Made by a program: the position numbers and the translations under genes. From positions 1-55,971 of the forward strand of contig QPGA01000030.1 in assembly GCA_003332265.1 (NCBI GenBank): DNA of 55,971 nt, given 5' to 3'. The stretch is from Candidatus Accumulibacter meliphilus. Its GTDB lineage: Bacteria > Pseudomonadota > Gammaproteobacteria > Burkholderiales > Rhodocyclaceae. Shown piece after piece: positions 5,839 to 25,454 of the stretch (its first letter is position 1; each line of letters begins with the position of its first letter). Below the pieces are notes generated by a model, which was not told the origin of the DNA, made no database searches, and worked only from the letters and a program-made list of their open reading frames with translations.

Positions 5839-6423
5839 ATGACTCACTACCTGTTCATCATCATCGGCGCCGTTCTCGTCAATAACGTCGTGCTGGTGAA
5901 GATTCTCGGCCTCTGCCCGTTCATGGGCGTTTCCAGGAAACTGGAGACGGCTTTCGGCATGGGCGCGGCGACGACTTTTGTGCTCACCGTGGCCACCGGT
6001 GCCAGCTACATCATCGACCATTACCTGTTGATGCCTTTCGGTCTCGAATACCTGCGCACGCTGTCGTTCATCGTTACCATCGCTGCCGTTGTTCAGCTCA
6101 CCGAAATGGTGATCCAGAAAACCAGTCCACTGCTGCATCAGGTGCTCGGCATCTACTTGCCGCTGATCACCACGAATTGTGCGGTTCTCGGAGTACCGCT
6201 GTTGAACATCGCCAACAAGAATGACTTTGTCGAATCGCTGCTTTTCGGGGCTGGCAGTGCCGTCGGTTTTTCGCTGGTGCTGGTGCTTTTCGCTGGCATC
6301 CGCGAACGCGTCGAAGGCGCCGACGTTCCGGTCTACTTTCGGGGCACGGCGATCGCCATGGTCACGGCCGGGCTGATGAGCCTGGCGTTCATGGGTTTCG
6401 CCGGGCTGGACCGCTACCAGTGA
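5839..6423 (+). CDS. rnfA: Rnf electron transport complex subunit A
   Basis: An integral-membrane subunit of the Rnf (Rsx) complex, which couples ferredoxin:NAD+ electron transfer to ion movement or, in E. coli, reduces SoxR. The protein has 194 residues, the usual length, and is almost entirely hydrophobic helices. Hallmarks are [18 protein letters not shown] and [17 protein letters not shown], including the conserved Cys-containing segments that in studied homologues bind an intramembrane 2Fe-2S cluster. The ATG at 5839 gives the family N-terminus [11 protein letters not shown]; the open frame extends 9 codons further upstream. Confidence 0.96.
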
Positions 6424-6436
6424 GAGTGGACAGGCA

Positions 6437-6988
6437 ATGATCACGGCCCTGGTAGTCATGGCGCTCGGGGCCATCGTCCTCGGCGCGGCGCTTGGCTATG
6501 CGTCGATCAGGTTCAAGGTCGAGGGCGACCCGGTGGTCGACAAGATCGATGCCATCCTGCCGCAGACGCAATGCGGGCAGTGCGGCTACCCGGGTTGCAA
6601 ACCTTACGCGACGGCCATTTCGGCGGGCGAAGCCGACATCAACCTCTGTCCGCCGGGCGGCATGGATGGAGTGCGCAAACTCGCCGACCTGCTCGGCCGC
6701 GAAGTCAAGCCACTGGACGCCGAGGAAAAGCCGAAACAGCTGGCGATCATCATCGAAGAGACCTGCATCGGTTGCACTCTGTGCATCCAGGCCTGCCCGG
6801 TGGACGCCATCGTCGGCGCCGCCAAGCAGATGCACACGGTCGTCGAATCCCTATGTACCGGCTGCGAGCTGTGCGTCAAACCCTGCCCGGTCGAGTGCAT
6901 CGAAATGCGGCCGATCACCGAGAACCTCGAGAACTGGAAATGGAAATACCCGGTGATCGAAATCAAGCCCGTCAAGCGTGCGGCCTGA
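6437..6988 (+). CDS. rnfB: Rnf electron transport complex subunit B, ferredoxin-like
   Basis: A 183-residue iron-sulfur subunit anchored by one N-terminal membrane helix (about residues 3-24). After it comes the 4Fe-4S module with CGQCGYPGC and a later Cys (NLCPPGG), then two ferredoxin-type clusters, [12 protein letters not shown] and [12 protein letters not shown]. It carries electrons between the soluble donor and the membrane subunits. It follows rnfA by 13 bases. The stop codon TGA shares its last base with the start of repeat copy B, which separates it from rnfC. Confidence 0.96.
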
Positions 6989-17274: not shown

Positions 17275-18852
17275 ATGGCCACTTCCGACTTCGAGATCGA
17301 ACGCCTTCGGCTGCAGGCCGCCGGCAGCTTGCCGGCGCACTGTTTTGATGAATTTCAGCGCCTGTCGCGAACACTGCTGCATGGGCCGGCCTTCCAGTGG
17401 CTGTTGGTCGACGCGCCGCACGAGTTGCTGCGCGAGCAGGTGATGGCCGCGCTCGACAGTGTTCTGCACGCTGCCGGCCTGCAGGTGCACCGCTTGCCGC
17501 TTGGACGCCGCATTGCCGACGTCGCGACGCTGGAAAAGCGACTGCTCAAGAACGTTGGCAAAGCAGCAGTGGTGCATGTCATCGGCTCGCAGGGCTGGTT
17601 CGATGCGGCCCGCTGGGATGCCTTCAACGTGCGCCGCGAGCGCATCGCTGCCGAAGTGCGCGCCCGGCTTGTGTTCTGGCTCGACGCTGAAGCGATTGCC
17701 CTGGCGTCGCACGGCGCTCCCGATCTCTGGGCCTGGCGTGGCGGCGTGTACGCTTTCACGCCGCTGCCGGCAACCGCCTACGTTCGCACGGAGGGGTCGA
17801 GTGGCGACTCGCCCTTTGTACGCTTCCCGTACCAGTATGGTCCCGACGTTCGCTCGATGAGCGAGCGTCGTCGGCGTATCGCCGACATCCGGGCATGGCT
17901 GGACAATCATGCCTCTGTGCCAGTCGACCTTCTCGTCGCGCCACTCGACGAACTGGGCCGACTGCTTTACGACGTCGGCGATTACGATGCCGCGCTGGCG
18001 CATTGGCGCGAGCGCGAGTTGCCGCTGCACCGGCAGCGCGGTGACGAACGTGGGATGGCGGTAACGCAAGGCAGGATTGCCGACGTACTGCAGACCCAAG
18101 GGCAGTTGGACGAGGTGCTACGTATCCGCCGCGAGGAACAGCTGCCGGTGTTCGAGCGCCTGGGCGATTCGCGCGAGCGGGCGATGACGCAAGGCAAGAT
18201 TGCCGACGTGCTGGAGTTGCGGGCGCAGTTGGACGAGGCGCTACGCATCCGCCGCGAGGAAGAGCTGCCGGTCTACGAGTTCCTGGACGATGTGCGCTCG
18301 CGGGCCATGACGCAAGGCAAGATTGCCGATGTACTGGAACTGCGGGGGCAGTTGGACGAGGCGCTGCGCATCCGCCGCGAGGAACTGTTGCCGGTATTCG
18401 AGCGTCTGGGCGATGTGCGCTCGCGGGCGGTCACGCAAGGCAGGATTGCCGACGTGCTGCAGGCGCGGGGACAGTTGGATGAGGCTTTGCGCATCCGCCG
18501 CGAGGAACAGCTGCCGGTATTCGAGCGCCTGGGCGATGTGCGCGAGAGGGCGGTAACGCAGGGCCGGATTGCTGACCTGCTCGAGGCGCGAGGGCAGCTG
18601 GACGAGGCACTGCGCATCCGCCGCGAGGAAGAGCTGCCGGTCTACGAGCGCTTGGGCGATGTGCGCTCGCGGGCGCTGGTGTCCTCGCAGATCGCACTGC
18701 AGCTATTGTGCCGCAACGACAGCGAGTCGTTGGCTGAAGCCAGGCAACTCCTTGAAGCGGCCTACGCCGACCTGTCGCGTGTGGGCCTTCCTGAGGCACA
18801 GCTGCTGGCCGACGAAATGCGCGAGCGCGGATTGACCGTACCTTCAATCTGA
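17275..18852 (+). CDS. TPR-repeat protein with near-identical 41-residue units
   Basis: A 525-residue protein. Residues 1-160 form a globular domain that ends in FWLDAEAIALASHGAPDLWAW; it resembles the nucleotide-binding part of large TPR-linked signalling NTPases but has no Walker A. A linker leads to one diverged repeat, then five almost identical 41-residue units at residues 266-470 (GKIADVLELRGQLDEALRIR type), which read as TPR-like helix pairs, and a final diverged repeat. There is no signal peptide or membrane helix. It is likely a scaffold or sensor for the ATPase encoded just upstream; function is unknown. Confidence 0.75.
   Translation: MATSDFEIERLRLQAAGSLPAHCFDEFQRLSRTLLHGPAFQWLLVDAPHELLREQVMAALDSVLHAAGLQVHRLPLGRRIADVATLEKRLLKNVGKAAVVHVIGSQGWFDAARWDAFNVRRERIAAEVRARLVFWLDAEAIALASHGAPDLWAWRGGVYAFTPLPATAYVRTEGSSGDSPFVRFPYQYGPDVRSMSERRRRIADIRAWLDNHASVPVDLLVAPLDELGRLLYDVGDYDAALAHWRERELPLHRQRGDERGMAVTQGRIADVLQTQGQLDEVLRIRREEQLPVFERLGDSRERAMTQGKIADVLELRAQLDEALRIRREEELPVYEFLDDVRSRAMTQGKIADVLELRGQLDEALRIRREELLPVFERLGDVRSRAVTQGRIADVLQARGQLDEALRIRREEQLPVFERLGDVRERAVTQGRIADLLEARGQLDEALRIRREEELPVYERLGDVRSRALVSSQIALQLLCRNDSESLAEARQLLEAAYADLSRVGLPEAQLLADEMRERGLTVPSI
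18070..18684 (+). repeat. Five tandem 123-bp coding repeats
   Basis: Units start at 18070, 18193, 18316, 18439 and 18562, a constant 123-bp period (41 codons), inside the TPR gene. They are near-identical at DNA level, including third codon positions, so they point to recent duplication or gene conversion. The unit begins ggcargattgcc and contains the shared run cgcatccgccgcgagga. Confidence 0.92.
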
Positions 18853-19789
18853 GGGTCGCTGAAGCGCCACAATCAGCGGAGATGCCTGCTTCGGCGCGGC
18901 AGTGACGACAAGCCGCTCTTCGTCGGCGGCGCGGCGGGGTTTTCTACGGCCTCTATCGCGCCCGCGAGAGGAGGCTGATGGCTGTCCCAAGGCCTCCGAT
19001 CACCTCTTCGATCGCCGTTTTCCTTTCCTGCCCCTGCAACGGCGGTCGTCGTCCTTGACGCGCCTGGTGGCGACGCTGCGGCTCGCCTTCCGACCCATAC
19101 CAATCGCTTGTCTTGCTTTACCCTGAAGTGCGCTGCGCTCGATGTGCTTTGCATGAATCGTGGCTCTGGAAAAGTCGCAACGTGGTCTGGACGATGCAGG
19201 CTTCCCGTGACTGCCACAGGACGTTCCAATGTCATGAGCCTTGGAGAATTTGCGAGAAATCGCGCGCAGCGGGCAGATTTCCGGGAACGGCCTTTAACCC
19301 CATGAACAAAAAGCTTTAGTTATCCGTAGTGACGATTAAATAGAGTCCGTTTCGTGGACGCGGCACTGCTTCCTGCGCAAAAAATGTTCTGGCCGCTGCC
19401 TGCCGTTTATTCCATTTCGTCCATTTTAATAGTTAATTTGAAGTGAATTGATTTCTTCCCCATTTGTTTCCGTGGACAAATGACCGGAGGATTTTTGTAG
19501 GTACACGGCAAGTTGTGTAAAAGCAGTTGGTTATATGCTTTTAACTGCATATGAAAACATTTTTTCTGCATCATGAAATGTGTTTCGCATCAAGCCTTTG
19601 CCGCTTGCTGCCGCCACCGCTTCTCGCAGTGGCCAGGCCAAGGTTTATTATTATTTGCTGCCTCTATGGGGCTTCTCAGAGGGAGATTTTCTGATAATCT
19701 TTGTCGCTCAGAGGCTTCGCGTCACCCCTGAAGTCTTTGATCTGCATCTAAAGACTTCAAAAATATTTTCCACCCTTGGAGAGTCCAAA
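18853..19789. other. Long gene-free region and AT-rich leader of the pst operon
   Basis: A 937-bp region without a supported gene. The first half is GC-rich with short frames on both strands that match nothing I recognise. From about 19300 the sequence turns markedly AT-rich, unlike the rest of the window. It holds overlapping dyads at 19519-19548 (aaaagca/tgctttt and gcagtt/aactgc) and a weak promoter-like pair, TTGGTT (19527-19532) and TATGAA (19550-19555) with 17-base spacing. I could not find a convincing two-part Pho box by eye. Confidence 0.6.
19729..19759 (+). promoter_or_regulatory. Stem-loop in the pstS 5' leader
   Basis: A perfect 10-bp inverted repeat (tgaagtcttt/aaagacttca) encloses an 11-base loop and ends 30 bases before the pstS ATG. 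It is followed by an A/T-rich stretch and then the GGAGAG ribosome-binding site. It could affect transcript stability or leader termination, or bind a regulator. Confidence 0.5.
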
Positions 19790-20665
19790 ATGACTTTGAA
19801 ATCGATGTTTTTGAGCGTCAGCCTTGCCGTCGCCGCTGCCCTGGCGTCAGGTGCCGTTTCTGCACGAACCGAGATCCAGAACAAGGGCTCGGACACTCTG
19901 GTCAACGTCGCCCAGTCATGGGCCGAGCAATACGGCAAGATCAATCCGAATGTGGCCGTCGCGGTTTCCGGCGGCGGCTCGGGTACCGGCATCGCAGCGA
20001 TGATCAACGGCACCGTGGATATCGCCAATTCCAGTCGCAAGATGAAGGACAAGGAGATAGCCGAGGCCAAGGCCAAAGGTCACGATCCGGTCGAGCACGT
20101 GGTCGGCTACGATGCCCTGGCTATCTTCGTACACAAGAGCTTTCCGCTGGATACCTTGAGCATCCCCGAACTGGCCAAGATCTACGGACGTGACGGTGGG
20201 GCGACCAAGTGGAGCGATCTGGGAATTACCGTTCCGGGTTGCAAGGACGAGATCGTCGTCGTCAGCCGGCAAAACAACTCGGGCACTTACGCCTACTTCC
20301 AGGAGGCCGTTCTCGGTGAGAAGGGCAAGTTCCGCCAGGGCACGCTGGACATGCACGGCTCCAAGGACGTCGCCGATCTGGTCGAGAAGACGCCTTGCGC
20401 GATCGGCTACAGTGGCCTTGCCTACGCCACGGATCACCTGAAGGCGTTGTGCATCTCGCCCGAGAAAGGCAAGCCATGCGTCATGCCGACCGAGGATACC
20501 GCTTTTGATGGCAGCTATCCGATCGCCCGTCCGCTGTTCATGTACACCGATGGTCAGCCGAAGGACGAAACCAAGAAGTACATGGACTGGATCAAGAGCG
20601 ACGTTGGCCAGTGCATCGTTGCCAAGGAAGGCTACGCGCCAATCAAGAAAGTCAGCTGCAAGTAA
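19790..20665 (+). CDS. pstS: Phosphate ABC transporter, periplasmic phosphate-binding protein
   Basis: A 291-residue secreted protein that captures phosphate for the Pst importer. The signal peptide covers about residues 1-25 (SLAVAAALASGAVSA). The phosphate site segments are recognisable: KGSDTLVNVAQSWAEQY, SGGGSGTGIAAMINGTVDIA and SRQNNSGTYAYFQEAV. The Cys pairs CKDE and CAIG/CISPEKGKPC may form disulfides. The ATG at 19790 is chosen because GGAGAG precedes it and the signal peptide starts there; the open frame reaches further upstream. It heads the operon. Confidence 0.94.
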   Translation: MTLKSMFLSVSLAVAAALASGAVSARTEIQNKGSDTLVNVAQSWAEQYGKINPNVAVAVSGGGSGTGIAAMINGTVDIANSSRKMKDKEIAEAKAKGHDPVEHVVGYDALAIFVHKSFPLDTLSIPELAKIYGRDGGATKWSDLGITVPGCKDEIVVVSRQNNSGTYAYFQEAVLGEKGKFRQGTLDMHGSKDVADLVEKTPCAIGYSGLAYATDHLKALCISPEKGKPCVMPTEDTAFDGSYPIARPLFMYTDGQPKDETKKYMDWIKSDVGQCIVAKEGYAPIKKVSCK

Positions 20666-21842: not shown

Positions 21843-22790
21843 ATGGCCAACAGCAACGCTGTACCTGGCGCCACAGTGGCTCGCGGGGGGGCTGGCGCGT
21901 TCGATCGTCGCGATTTCGACTGGTACGTAGACAAGGCGGTTCAGGCCCTGGTGTTCCTCTGCGGTATCTCGGCGATCGTCTTCGTGCTGGGAATTTTTAT
22001 TTTCGTCTTCAAGGAAGGTGTCGGCTTCATCCTGCACCACATGAACGTCCGGGAGTTCTTTCTCACGCCGTACTGGTTCCCGAGCGACGCCGACGCCCCC
22101 GAGTACGGGATCCTGGCGCTGATGGCAGGTACCGCCAGCGTCACCGGTCTGGCAATGCTGGTCGCCGTGCCGTTCTCGCTCGGAGCGGCGATCTACATTG
22201 CCGAGTTTGCCAGTGGCAAGACCCGTGAAACGCTGAAAGTGCTGGTCGAGCTGCTGGCGGCGATTCCGTCGGTGGTCTGGGGCTTCATCGGCCTGGTGAT
22301 CATGAATCCCTTGATCATCAAGTGGTTCGACGTGCCGGTGGGTCTCTGCGTGCTCAACGCCGGCATCATTCTTGGTTTGATGGCGGCACCGATCATGACC
22401 TCGATCGCCGAGGATGCGCTCAAGGCAGTGCCCGATCGTTACCGTGAAGCCGCCGAGGCGATGGGCGCGACGCGCTGGCAGGTGACCTACAAGGTGGTGT
22501 TGCCGGCGGCCAAGAACGGGCTGCTCGGTGGCGTGCTGCTCGGGGTCGGACGCGGTTTCGGAGAAACGATGGCCGTGCTGATGGCGACCGGACACGCGGT
22601 CAATATTCCCGACAGCGTCTTCGACTCGGTGCGCGCGCTGACCGCGACGATCGCCGCAGAACTGGGTGAAACGGTGGTCGGCGGCGAGCATTATCAAGCG
22701 CTGTTCACCATCGGCATTCTGCTCTTCGTGGTCACCTTCACCGTCAACCTGACCGCCGATCTCATCGTGCGCGGCATTCGCAAGGGATAG
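21843..22790 (+). CDS. pstC: Phosphate ABC transporter permease PstC
   Basis: A 315-residue inner-membrane permease with about six membrane helices. The N-terminal 35 residues are cytoplasmic. The binding-protein-dependent transport signature (EAAEAMGATRWQVTYKVVLP) and the preceding LLAAIPSVVWGFIGLV are typical of PstC, as is GVGRGFGETMAVLMATGH. It starts one base after the phoU stop, with GAGG upstream, and is followed three bases later by pstA. Confidence 0.95.
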   Translation: MANSNAVPGATVARGGAGAFDRRDFDWYVDKAVQALVFLCGISAIVFVLGIFIFVFKEGVGFILHHMNVREFFLTPYWFPSDADAPEYGILALMAGTASVTGLAMLVAVPFSLGAAIYIAEFASGKTRETLKVLVELLAAIPSVVWGFIGLVIMNPLIIKWFDVPVGLCVLNAGIILGLMAAPIMTSIAEDALKAVPDRYREAAEAMGATRWQVTYKVVLPAAKNGLLGGVLLGVGRGFGETMAVLMATGHAVNIPDSVFDSVRALTATIAAELGETVVGGEHYQALFTIGILLFVVTFTVNLTADLIVRGIRKG

Positions 22791-22793
22791 AAA

Positions 22794-23684
22794 ATGACAA
22801 CTGCCAACGCCGCCATGTTTCAGGCGAGCAGCCTGAACCACCGCAATGCCAGGGTCCAGAGCCTCTATCGAATCCTCTTCGGTGTGATGACGCTGATGCT
22901 GATTGCGCCGGTAATGATGATTCTGGGAACCCTGATCTACAAGGGTGGCGGGGTGATCTCCTGGGAGTTTCTGTTTACTGCGCCAACTGACGGGATGCGT
23001 ACCGGCGGCGTCCTGCCCGCCCTGCTGGGTACCGTCTGGCTGGTAACGGTGGCGCTGTTGCTGTCGGTTCCGATCGGCGTTTTCGCGGCGATTTACCTCA
23101 GCGAGTACGCCGGCGACAACTGGTTTACGCGCATCATCAATCTGGCGATCATCAACCTGGCCGGTGTGCCGTCGATCGTGCACGCCTTGTTCGGGTTGGG
23201 TGCTTTCGTCATCTTTTTCAAGTTCGGGACCAGTATTCTGGCGGCCAGTCTGACGCTGGCGGTGATGACCATGCCGGTGGTCATCGTCGCCACCCGCGAA
23301 TCACTGCAGTCGGTACCGCCGGCATTTCGCGAGGCCTGCTGGAACATGGGAGCGACGCGCTGGCAGACCATTCGCAAGGTGGTGCTGCCGAACTCGATCA
23401 CCGGCATCCTGACCGGCGTGATCCTCGAAGTTTCGCGTACCGCTGGCGAGACCGCGCCGATCATGTTCACCGGCGCGGTGTTTTTCACGCCTTTCCTGCC
23501 GCAAAGCGTCTTCGACCAGACCATGGCCTTGTCCTTGCACCTGTTTGTTGCCGCGACCCAGGTTCCGGGGATCGCCGAGGAAGTCCCGTTCGGCATCGCT
23601 CTGGTACTCATCGGACTGGTGTTGCTGATGAACAGCGCGTCGATCGCGTTTCGCATGTGGCTCAGGGGGAAGAAGAAATGGTAA
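22794..23684 (+). CDS. pstA: Phosphate ABC transporter permease PstA
   Basis: A 296-residue inner-membrane permease, partner of PstC. Typical segments are NLAGVPSIVHALFGLGAFVIF, the EAA loop EACWNMGATRWQTIRKVVLP and EVSRTAGETAPIMFTGAVFF. The C-terminus is short and basic (MWLRGKKKW). Its stop overlaps the first pstB start by seven bases, so the two are translationally coupled. Confidence 0.95.
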   Translation: MTTANAAMFQASSLNHRNARVQSLYRILFGVMTLMLIAPVMMILGTLIYKGGGVISWEFLFTAPTDGMRTGGVLPALLGTVWLVTVALLLSVPIGVFAAIYLSEYAGDNWFTRIINLAIINLAGVPSIVHALFGLGAFVIFFKFGTSILAASLTLAVMTMPVVIVATRESLQSVPPAFREACWNMGATRWQTIRKVVLPNSITGILTGVILEVSRTAGETAPIMFTGAVFFTPFLPQSVFDQTMALSLHLFVAATQVPGIAEEVPFGIALVLIGLVLLMNSASIAFRMWLRGKKKW

Positions 23685-24499
23685 GTCAAAGCGCTCTTGG
23701 ACGCGTAGCGGTCGCCGCTCAAGAGGACGCCGCTGCCGCGGCGCCGCGGACCAAGCTGGCGGTCAAGAACCTGACCATCAGTTACGGGAAGGCATTGGCA
23801 TTGAAGGATGTCAGCCTGGAGATTCGCGAGCACGAGATCTTCGGCATCATTGGCCCCGCCAATGCCGGCAAGACCTCCTTCCTCAAAGCGGTCAACCGCA
23901 TGGACATGTTCACCACGGGAATGCGCGTGGCCGGCGAAATCCACTTCAATGGGCTGGATACCCGCCACCTGAAGAACGTCTATGCGCTACGCAGTCGCAT
24001 CGGCGTCGTCTTTCCGCTGCCGGTTGGTCTGCCGATGACGGTCTATGACAACGTTGCCCTGTCGCCGCGCCTGCGGGGAATCAAGGAAAAGGCCGAGTTG
24101 GACGTGATCGTGCAGCGCTGCCTGACTCGCGCAGCTCTCTGGGACGAAGTCAAGGACCGCCTCAATGCGCTCGGCAGCCTGCTTTCGGGCGGCCAGCAGC
24201 AGCGGCTGACGATCGCCCGGGCGCTGTCGCAGGAACCCGACCTGCTGATGCTCGACGAGTTCTCGATTGCCGTCGACCCGGTCACCACCATGCGCATCGA
24301 AGATGTGCTCAAGGAGTTGCGCAAGGAAGTGACCATCATCCTGGTGACCAACCTGGTGCAGCAGGCGCGCCGTCTGGCCGACCGTACCGCATTTTTCCTG
24401 AACAGCGAGTGCGTCGAGATCGGGGTCACCGAGGATCTGTTCACCGGCCCTGTGAAGGATCGGCGGACGCGTGATTACGTGGAGGGACGATTCGGCTGA
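23678..24499 (+). CDS. pstB: PstB-like ABC ATPase 1, degenerate Q-loop and switch
   Basis: A 273-residue homologue of the phosphate importer ATPase, alignable over its full length to PstB including the end RDYVEGRFG. Walker A is GPANAGKT (59-66) instead of the usual GPSGCGKS. The Q-loop Gln is Pro113 (VFPLP), Walker B keeps Asp193-Glu194 (MLDEFSIAVDP), and the switch His is Asn225 (ILVTNLVQQ). The signature LLSGGQQQRLTIARAL is intact. On its own it should hydrolyse ATP poorly, but it can supply a good signature to a partner. The ATG at 23678 is preferred to a GTG seven codons earlier. Confidence 0.88.
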   Translation: MVSQSALGRVAVAAQEDAAAAAPRTKLAVKNLTISYGKALALKDVSLEIREHEIFGIIGPANAGKTSFLKAVNRMDMFTTGMRVAGEIHFNGLDTRHLKNVYALRSRIGVVFPLPVGLPMTVYDNVALSPRLRGIKEKAELDVIVQRCLTRAALWDEVKDRLNALGSLLSGGQQQRLTIARALSQEPDLLMLDEFSIAVDPVTTMRIEDVLKELRKEVTIILVTNLVQQARRLADRTAFFLNSECVEIGVTEDLFTGPVKDRRTRDYVEGRFG

Positions 24500-24647
24500 G
24501 CCTTGCTGCCCGGCGCGTGCGCCGCTGCCGGGTGGCGGTGCACACCTTCGCTGCACTGGCGGGGATCGTCGAAGCGCTGCGTGACGGGCTTTGCAAACAG
24601 CGCTTGCCCTGAATCAATTGAAGAATGCAAACGAAGGACACAACGAG

Positions 24648-25454
24648 ATGACCGCCGCCCCAGCCGCTGCTCTGCTGCAGCCAGCTCCCGAATACGCGAT
24701 CGACACCAAGAAACTCAACCTCTGGTACGGGACCTTCCAGGCCCTGTACGAGGTAGATTTGCAAATCCGCAAGGGCATGATCACCTCGATGATCGGTCCC
24801 TCGGGATGCGGCAAGAGTACCTACCTGCGCAGCGTCAACCGCATCAACGAACGCCTCGGCTACGTGCGCATCGAGGGTAGTATCGAAGTCATGGGCCAGA
24901 ATATCTATGACTCGGACGTCGAGTTGATCCAGGTGCGCAAACAGGTCGGAATGGTTTTTCAGCGGCCCAATCCGCTGCCCATTTCGATTCGCGACAATAT
25001 TCTTTTCAGCCATCGCCTGCACGCCAAGGGTGGTGGTGGCGTACACCAGGGCACCCCCGACGAGATCGTCGAGGAGTCGCTGCGCACGGTGCTGCTTTGG
25101 GACAAGGTCAAGGACCGCCTCAAGCGCAAGGCCACCGAACTGTCGCTCGAAGAGCAGCAGAAGTTGTGCATCGCGCGCTTGCTGCCGGTCAAGCCGACGC
25201 TGCTGCTGATGGACGAGCCGTGTTCGGCGCTCGACCCGAAGGGCACCGAGGCGGTAGAAGAGCTGCTCTGGGAACTGCGTGGTCAGTACACGATCCTGAT
25301 CGTCACCCACAACATGGCGCAGGCGCGCCGTGCCAGCGAAGAATGCATCTTCATGCTGATGGGCCGGGTCGTCGAGCACGCGCTGACCGAGGAGATGTTC
25401 GTGACCCCGACCCACAAGGAGACCGCCGACTACATCGAGGGGCGTTACGGCTGA
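24648..25454 (+). CDS. pstB: PstB-like ABC ATPase 2, degenerate signature motif
   Basis: A 268-residue PstB homologue ending in DYIEGRYG. Walker A GPSGCGKST (50-58), Q-loop VFQRPNP (Gln105), Walker B LLMDEPCSALDP (Asp189, Glu190) and switch IVTHNM (His221) are canonical. The signature is not: LSGGQ is LSLEE (165-169), followed by QQKLCIAR. A Gly-rich insert (KGGGGVHQGTPDE) lies in the helical domain. The features it lacks are those ATPase 1 keeps, and the reverse, so a heterodimer is the natural reading. A 148-bp gap separates the two; GAAGGA precedes the ATG. Confidence 0.9.
   Translation: MTAAPAAALLQPAPEYAIDTKKLNLWYGTFQALYEVDLQIRKGMITSMIGPSGCGKSTYLRSVNRINERLGYVRIEGSIEVMGQNIYDSDVELIQVRKQVGMVFQRPNPLPISIRDNILFSHRLHAKGGGGVHQGTPDEIVEESLRTVLLWDKVKDRLKRKATELSLEEQQKLCIARLLPVKPTLLLMDEPCSALDPKGTEAVEELLWELRGQYTILIVTHNMAQARRASEECIFMLMGRVVEHALTEEMFVTPTHKETADYIEGRYG

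Follow-up and report, generated by a model that had tools for sequence, protein, structure and literature searches.

Complementary motif losses in two adjacent PstB ATPases predict an asymmetric Pst-type phosphate importer in Candidatus Accumulibacter meliphilus and distant relatives

The DNA analysed here (the window) is a stretch of 55,971 nucleotides, contig QPGA01000030.1 of assembly GCA_003332265.1, from Candidatus Accumulibacter meliphilus, a genome assembled in 120 contigs and 91% complete. On its + strand lies a Pst-type phosphate import operon with the gene order pstS, phoU fusion, pstC, pstA, pstB1, pstB2, whose last two genes both encode ATP-binding cassette (ABC) ATPases of the PstB kind. 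The genes and the diagnostic motif positions of the two ATPases are:

19790..20665, + strand: pstS, phosphate-binding protein; open reading frame (ORF) 19580-20665 with ATG 19790 as the likely start; TIGR02136 at 241.5 bits against a cut-off of 206.6, and PF12849
20756..21841, + strand: phoU with a C-terminal ArsC/low-molecular-weight (LMW) phosphatase-like domain (about residues 215-361) that lacks the catalytic Cys (Asp225 instead); PF01895 above cut-off
21843..22790, + strand: pstC, permease subunit; TIGR02138 at 276.1 bits against a cut-off of 196.45
22794..23684, + strand: pstA, permease subunit; TIGR00974 at 256.5 bits against a cut-off of 193.45
23678..24499, + strand: pstB1, ATPase in which Walker A and the Q-, D- and H-loops are degenerate and LSGGQ is intact; TIGR00972 at 277.5 bits against a cut-off of 343.2
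23852..23875, + strand: PstB1 Walker A, GPANAGKT, with Asn replacing the fourth-position Gly; Asn unvaried in the genus, class, GTDB and phylum sets
24014..24016, + strand: PstB1 Pro113 at the position of the Q-loop Gln; Pro in 100% of 81 sequences of the system, Gln in 100% of 70 canonical ones
24182..24196, + strand: PstB1 intact signature LSGGQ; kept in genus, GTDB and phylum loci
24350..24352, + strand: PstB1 Asn225 at the position of the switch His; Asn in 100% of 81 sequences of the system, His in 100% of 70 canonical ones
24648..25454, + strand: pstB2, ATPase whose Walker A, Walker B, Q-loop and H-loop are intact and whose signature is LSLEE; TIGR00972 at 316.9 bits against a cut-off of 343.2
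25140..25154, + strand: PstB2 LSLEE at the LSGGQ position; LSLE in 20/20 genus, 77/77 readable GTDB and 19/19 + 6/6 phylum loci

The start of pstS was chosen from a reading of its signal peptide. PstS, PstC and PstA all score above their phosphate-family cut-offs; TIGR00972 is the best NCBIfam match of both ATPases, though neither reaches that PstB equivalog cut-off. PstB1 (273 residues) and PstB2 (268 residues) are 38% identical, and pstB1 overlaps pstA, its ATG at 23678 sitting inside the end of the upstream gene (pstA TAA at 23682-23684). Around the operon, a tetratricopeptide-repeat protein is encoded upstream at 17275-18852, as it also is upstream in genome G011, and some relatives (L136, L149, L158, L258) carry a second PstS-like gene 3' of pstB2.

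The motif changes, residue numbers and coordinates that a first-pass annotation had given for the two ATPases were all confirmed on the window sequence. PstB1 reads GPANAGKT, Pro113, LSGGQ, DEF and Asn225, with further changes in the D-loop (IAVD for SALD) and a Phe in place of the Pro after the Walker B Glu. The damage to PstB1 is only partial, since the Lys-Thr of Walker A and the Asp-Glu of Walker B are retained. PstB2 reads GPSGCGKS, Gln105, Asp189-Glu190 and His221, with LSLEE as its signature. Canonical PstB proteins from the genus, family, order and class have GPSGCGKS or nearly so, FQ, LSGGQ (MSGGQ in a few), DEP and VTH. Using 70 of these as reference, we scored as fixed those differences in which at least 95% of the system share one residue and at least 85% of canonical PstB another. 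In 81 PstB1 sequences there are 23 such differences, none within LSGGQ. Among the canonical residues replaced are, at Walker A, Ser60, Gly61, Ser65, Thr66 and Arg69; at the Q-loop, Met109, Gln112, Lys113, Pro116 and Phe117; at the D-loop, Pro194, Ser196 and Leu198; and at the H-loop, His224, Asn225 and Met226 (numbered without the first Met). In 76 PstB2 sequences there are 18, which include both Gly residues and the Gln of the signature and an Arg three positions further on; not one of the 18 falls on a catalytic Walker, Q or H residue.

In an ABC dimer, one subunit contributes the Walker, Q and H motifs to each ATP site and the other contributes the signature. A canonical homodimer of nucleotide-binding domains has the full set of Walker A, Q, LSGGQ, Walker B and H motifs in one protein; neither PstB1 nor PstB2 does. 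When the motifs are read with this established geometry, the losses are arranged as in heterodimeric degenerate-site ABC proteins: the site formed by the PstB2 Walker motifs and the PstB1 LSGGQ is complete and fully canonical, and the site formed by the PstB1 Walker motifs and the PstB2 LSLEE is damaged on both faces. It is very unlikely that PstB1 and PstB2 are each a working homodimer in which the motif changes are tolerated, since either homodimer would contain two damaged sites, with LSLEE twice in the case of PstB2 and with the Q and H residues twice missing in the case of PstB1. A precedent for such an arrangement is Enterococcus faecalis, whose adjacent pstB genes are reported to have separate functions (PMC12096839).

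The pair is strongly conserved within Accumulibacter. Among 28 genus genomes, the source genome included, PstB1 was found in 19 (83-100% identity) and PstB2 in 20 (85-100% identity, two of them partial matches); the twentieth genome with the pair is G003, in which the start of a contig cuts PstB1. The PstB1 motifs are identical in all 19 genes, LSLEE is present in all 20 PstB2 genes, and the remaining PstB2 motifs are canonical wherever present. Invariant columns number 199 of 273 in PstB1 and 206 of 271 in PstB2. Neither protein was detected in the other eight genus genomes (G004-G007, G012, G018, G024, G027). Two genomes that consist of a single contig, G010 and G016, carry the pair. Extra incomplete copies of PstB2 occur in two genomes. 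In G010 (locus L087, G010:C1:4274000-4286000, about 6120-6940 and 2000-2320) these are a copy with a stop and a frameshift and smaller pieces of PstB1 and PstB2, about 18 kb away from the intact operon; in G020 (L276, G020:C69) a fragment lies at 2115-2543. The PstB2 of G023, which appears broken, contains a run of N, that is, an assembly gap.

Outside the genus the system is found over large distances. The order, class and phylum sets are samples from larger groups. In 399 sampled genomes of the order a PstB1 search at E 1e-72 found only the source genome. Scanning GTDB species genomes yielded 209 relatives. The 80 loci retained for analysis do not include L171, whose 27% match to PstB1 is a different ABC protein. 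By title, 15 of the 80 loci are Accumulibacter and 65 are others, and about 50 of those 65 are gammaproteobacterial metagenome-assembled genomes (MAGs) or symbionts (Thiodiazotropha, Sedimenticola, Chromatiales, Lysobacterales, symbionts of tubeworms and clams). Single loci are labelled Planctomycetota, Gemmatimonadetes, Alphaproteobacteria, Deltaproteobacteria and Bacteriovoracaceae, for which misbinning is possible. All 80 PstB1 proteins have GPANAGKT (75) or GPANSGKT (5) together with FPLP, LSGGQ, LDEF and VTN. The 77 readable PstB2 signatures are LSLEE (74), LSLEQ (2) and LSLEK (1), and FQ, DE and His are present wherever they can be read. PstB2 adjoins PstB1 in 78 of the 80 loci; in L183 and L190 the contig stops just past PstB1.

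Separate PstB1 and PstB2 profiles, run over a class sample of 369 genomes, match the same eight, the source genome included, with a clear gap in bit score below them (nothing between 486 and 299 for PstB2 or between 464 and 253 for PstB1), and in all seven other genomes the two genes are adjacent and have the same motifs. In a phylum sample of 398 genomes, picked by PstB2 search only, PstB2 was found at E 1e-100 in 23, and 25 of the matches lie outside the source genome. All 25 loci were then read: PstB2 has LSLE in every one and PstB1 stands beside it with the same changes in 24, and all 22 other phylum genomes carry PstB1 with the same altered motifs. Taken over all sets, each genome with one protein has the other, save where a contig end intervenes (G003, L183, L190). 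On the question of whether the two subfamilies always occur together and carry the same substitutions, no complete PstB1 or PstB2 was found without its partner except at contig ends, and none has canonical motifs.

Co-occurrence does not extend to strict adjacency, and we have dropped the statement that the two genes always adjoin, as the genome G927 (730 contigs, 6% contamination) has PstB1 on contig 200 and PstB2 on contig 599. Its complete PstB1, which follows pstC and pstA, has GPSNGGKS as Walker A and carries the three replacements seen elsewhere (Asn, Pro, Asn) at their usual positions. The separation could reflect an insertion, possibly of a signalling pair, between the genes, or a misassembly. 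By eye, a phosphatase-like gene follows PstB1 in this genome (locus L274 is on contig 599, L282 on contig 200). Among viral contigs, two relatives with 44-47% identity to the G927 PstB1 were found.

Both ATPases are under strong purifying constraint. The ratio of nonsynonymous to synonymous substitution (dN/dS), calculated between the gene in the window and its counterparts in 10 named Accumulibacter loci (of 15) with the first 24 codons excluded, is 0.075-0.100 for PstB1 and 0.045-0.091 for PstB2, next to 0.060-0.075 for PstA and 0.026-0.112 for PstC. A relaxed or decaying duplicate, or an artefact of sequencing or binning, could be argued from the extra incomplete copies in G010 (with its stop) and G020 and from G927, which looks rearranged. 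We regard either as extremely improbable, since the motifs are kept across distant lineages, dN/dS is at most 0.1, the main copies are free of stops, and the pair is present in the single-contig genomes G010 and G016. Decay is rejected on the motif conservation and the low dN/dS. The first-pass annotation had reached the same conclusion by another route, namely that the damage is too neatly split between the two proteins to be random. By a hand estimate (three lesions sparing the signature in one protein, a single lesion striking the signature in the other) the chance of so neat a split within one genome is about 0.08. Taken from one genome alone the split is weak evidence, and it is conservation that gives it significance.

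A tree of 125 rows selected from the loci collected (38 PstB1, 38 PstB2, 48 canonical PstB and one outgroup) places PstB1 and PstB2 each in a single clade at 100/100, in an analysis whose bootstrap had not settled, with long stems (3.77 and 1.72) and short internal branches. PstB2 branches among canonical PstB proteins. The position of PstB1 is less sure, given its long stem and an unsuitable outgroup, whose very long branch also makes the root unsure. In both clades Accumulibacter joins a Chromatiaceae MAG (L133) among gammaproteobacterial rows. Elsewhere in the order, within the samples covered, the genes were seen only in a Dechloromonas record (L124). This is the complete chromosome of Dechloromonas sp. 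SSD3, whose operon nests within the Accumulibacter rows; a recent transfer or a mislabelled genome are possible explanations. The simplest history suggested by these sequences would be a single origin elsewhere followed by joint transfer of the operon into Accumulibacter.

The operon also carries an unusual PhoU, with about 145 extra residues and a score of 122.6 bits against TIGR02135, just under the cut-off of 130.25. An ORF of fused length (340-375 codons, no N) is present in 68 of the 72 loci with a PhoU match. Of five C-terminal parts tested, four match Pfam LMWPc (three above cut-off); the window's own C-terminal part has no Pfam match at E 1. That of L139 matches arsenate reductases in the PDB, with a best E of 1.2e-4. 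In an AlphaFold model of PhoU (pLDDT 89.6) the first part matches PhoU structures and the second ArsC (1jl3, TMt 0.84). The operon PhoU thus unites the folds of two families, PhoU and ArsC/LMW phosphatase, and its ArsC-like half lacks the catalytic Cys: this residue is replaced by Asp225, and the Asp is at least 90% conserved in an alignment of 55 sequences (the window and 54 of the 68 of fused length). It is plausible that this dead domain would still bind phosphate, and it may serve as a phosphate sensor. A PhoU-ArsC-like fusion was not found in the literature search, which covered its sources in part and mostly did not extend to subscription papers.

The same asymmetric importer might carry another oxyanion, arsenate, tungstate or the like, instead of phosphate. 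The arsenate reductase fold of the PhoU C-terminal domain in the model and the window's lack of a Pho box above chance speak for such a substrate. PstS, PstC and PstA above phosphate-family cut-offs and a phoU gene in the operon speak for phosphate, as do Pho-box-like sites (at least 12/14) 5' of pstS, which occur in 24 of the 68 loci compared with 4 of 340 shuffles that preserve base content only. We judge another oxyanion to be unlikely.

Whether a canonical PstB could supply the operon was addressed in the same genomes. The first-pass annotation had named a second complete canonical pstB serving this operon as one of the findings that would undo its proposal, and a canonical pstB is present in 16 of the 20 pair-bearing genus genomes. 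However, 24 of the 25 canonical genus loci that we read adjoin a pstA of their own, and most also a pstC (the remaining locus, L036, stops at a contig end). Moreover, no PstB above the family cut-off was found in four pair-bearing genus genomes, G000 (91% complete), G001 (100%), G015 (97%) and G019 (83%), or in four of the seven pair-bearing genomes at class level (G586, G651, G696, G722). In these eight genomes the pair is the likely working high-affinity phosphate pump; Pit-type transporters were found in G000, G001, G015 and G019. The genus also has a second family of PstB-like ATPases (L113 on G007:C57 and similar loci) with about 240 bits, canonical motifs and 32% identity to PstB2, and in G007 an ATPase of this type is the sole PstB match at the threshold used.

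These data bear on a different role for PstB1, that of a pseudo-ATPase kept mainly for regulation, for example as a docking site for the PhoU-ArsC-like protein, with PstB2 partnered in its work either by a canonical PstB encoded elsewhere or by a PstB1 that is no more than a scaffold. Such a role would suit the strong constraint on a PstB1 that has lost its Q, H and Walker A residues, the canonical PstB in the 16 genomes and the unusual PhoU of the operon. We nevertheless think it unlikely, given the eight pair genomes with no PstB above cut-off, the canonical loci that adjoin their own pstA, and the unchanged LSGGQ of PstB1, a motif that matters only across the dimer from a working Walker site.

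The reading that we prefer, and consider highly probable, is that the operon encodes a dedicated Pst-type phosphate importer driven by an obligate heterodimer of PstB1 and PstB2, in which one ATP site is catalytic and the other degenerate. We infer the heterodimer and the asymmetry of its ATPases from sequence. The Walker A and B, Q and H motifs of PstB2 and the LSGGQ of PstB1 would form the sole catalytic site. PstB1 Walker A and PstB2 LSLEE would form the degenerate one, where ATP may be held as a structural clamp with little or no hydrolysis; because PstB1 retains the P-loop Lys and Walker B, this site probably still holds ATP, as in degenerate-site exporters. Were the degenerate site silent, one hydrolysis per transport cycle would follow. 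PstC and PstA would be driven unequally, and the importer would be regulated by PhoU, whose fused and catalytically dead ArsC-like domain may sense phosphate. The site chemistry, the stoichiometry and the sensing of phosphate are likewise features that we infer.

Several observations count against this reading. First, the altered Walker A was part of a pattern used in the GTDB scan, so that the invariance of this motif in that set owes something to selection by the scan; the class and phylum samples are free of that effect. Second, the canonical PstB of the 16 genus genomes could in principle mix in. Third, the PstB2 of G927, on a different contig from PstB1, follows a 15-residue remnant of PstB1 and, by eye, a protein-kinase-like gene. 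Fourth, many of the 24 loci with Pho-box-like sites are closely related to one another, L122 is the sole Accumulibacter locus to reach that score, and the best site upstream of the window's pstS is 10/14, the commonest maximum in 200 shuffles. Finally, position 190 of PstC gives no pairing of permease with ATPase: an R-to-E change there, near the coupling helix, had seemed a marker of the permease facing the altered ATPase and was clean against eight canonical sequences, and was rejected when it failed against 61 (47 R, 11 E, 2 Q, 1 K).

The obligate, asymmetric heterodimer proposed in the first-pass annotation therefore largely survives, as a prediction from sequence, both the comparison of co-occurrence and that of canonical pstB. 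The altered reversibility and the relevance to polyphosphate accumulation that went with it are not supported: the system is widespread outside the genus, eight of 28 genus genomes lack the pair, and none of the results concerns reversibility. We reject an adaptation specific to polyphosphate-accumulating organisms on the grounds that most relatives found lie outside the genus and that the pair is missing from those eight genomes within it. A wider picture is possible, and we offer it tentatively, as something that we would not yet bet on. In this picture the operon represents a separate lineage of high-affinity phosphate importers, powered by only one catalytic ATP site, perhaps at a cost of one ATP for each phosphate, and with a dead arsenate-reductase-like PhoU domain as its phosphate gauge; it would have arisen once, become fixed in sequence and moved between classes or orders, wastewater polyphosphate accumulators included.

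Textbook accounts of the Pst importer assume that its two ATP sites are equal. In the present system one of them appears to have been lost in evolution, a state then fixed over large distances. The system may offer a natural test of two points: whether ATP has to be hydrolysed twice in each cycle of an importer that depends on a substrate-binding protein, and which permease has to feel that hydrolysis. Classical PstSCAB shares the gene set and the PstC and PstA families, and its PstB is the nearest solved relative (chains 9k3s, 9k3x and 9k3y, which we take to be the E. coli PstB homodimer). In contrast to its one canonical PstB, the present system has two PstB types with split motifs, both under the family cut-off. 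Degenerate-site ABC proteins are already known, CFTR among them, and none was found for Pst in the literature searched. The degenerate-site exporters lose other motifs than PstB1, which keeps its catalytic Glu. The heterodimeric exporters TM287/288, BmrCD, TmrAB and MsRv1273c/72c have one consensus and one degenerate site, as proposed here, and are exporters of a different fold.

Adjacent pstB genes are known in Firmicutes. The PstB1 and PstB2 of E. faecalis are reported with intact motifs (PMC12096839), and a modelling table lists B. subtilis PstBA/PstBB as a heterodimer (PMC11466899). These resemble the present system in having two neighbouring pstB genes, but the accessible parts of the two sources report no degenerate PstB site, and a pair in which both PstB are canonical is not what we find here. 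Papers on Accumulibacter report pstSCAB and, in the parts available, make no mention of an altered PstB pair (PMC11131965, PMC9238405, PMC11999188). A PstB with a degenerate site was not found in the accessible parts of the literature searched (including PMC12096839, PMC13170248, PMC12136057 and PMC11466899), a search whose reach mostly excluded subscription papers. The closest importers in this respect are RbsA and NupO, described as type II importers with fused nucleotide-binding domains and one predicted degenerate ATP site (PMC11466899). They share with the system proposed here the single degenerate site of an ABC importer, but their two sites belong to halves of one polypeptide and they differ in importer type and substrates; their second Walker A lacks the Lys, whereas PstB1 keeps it.

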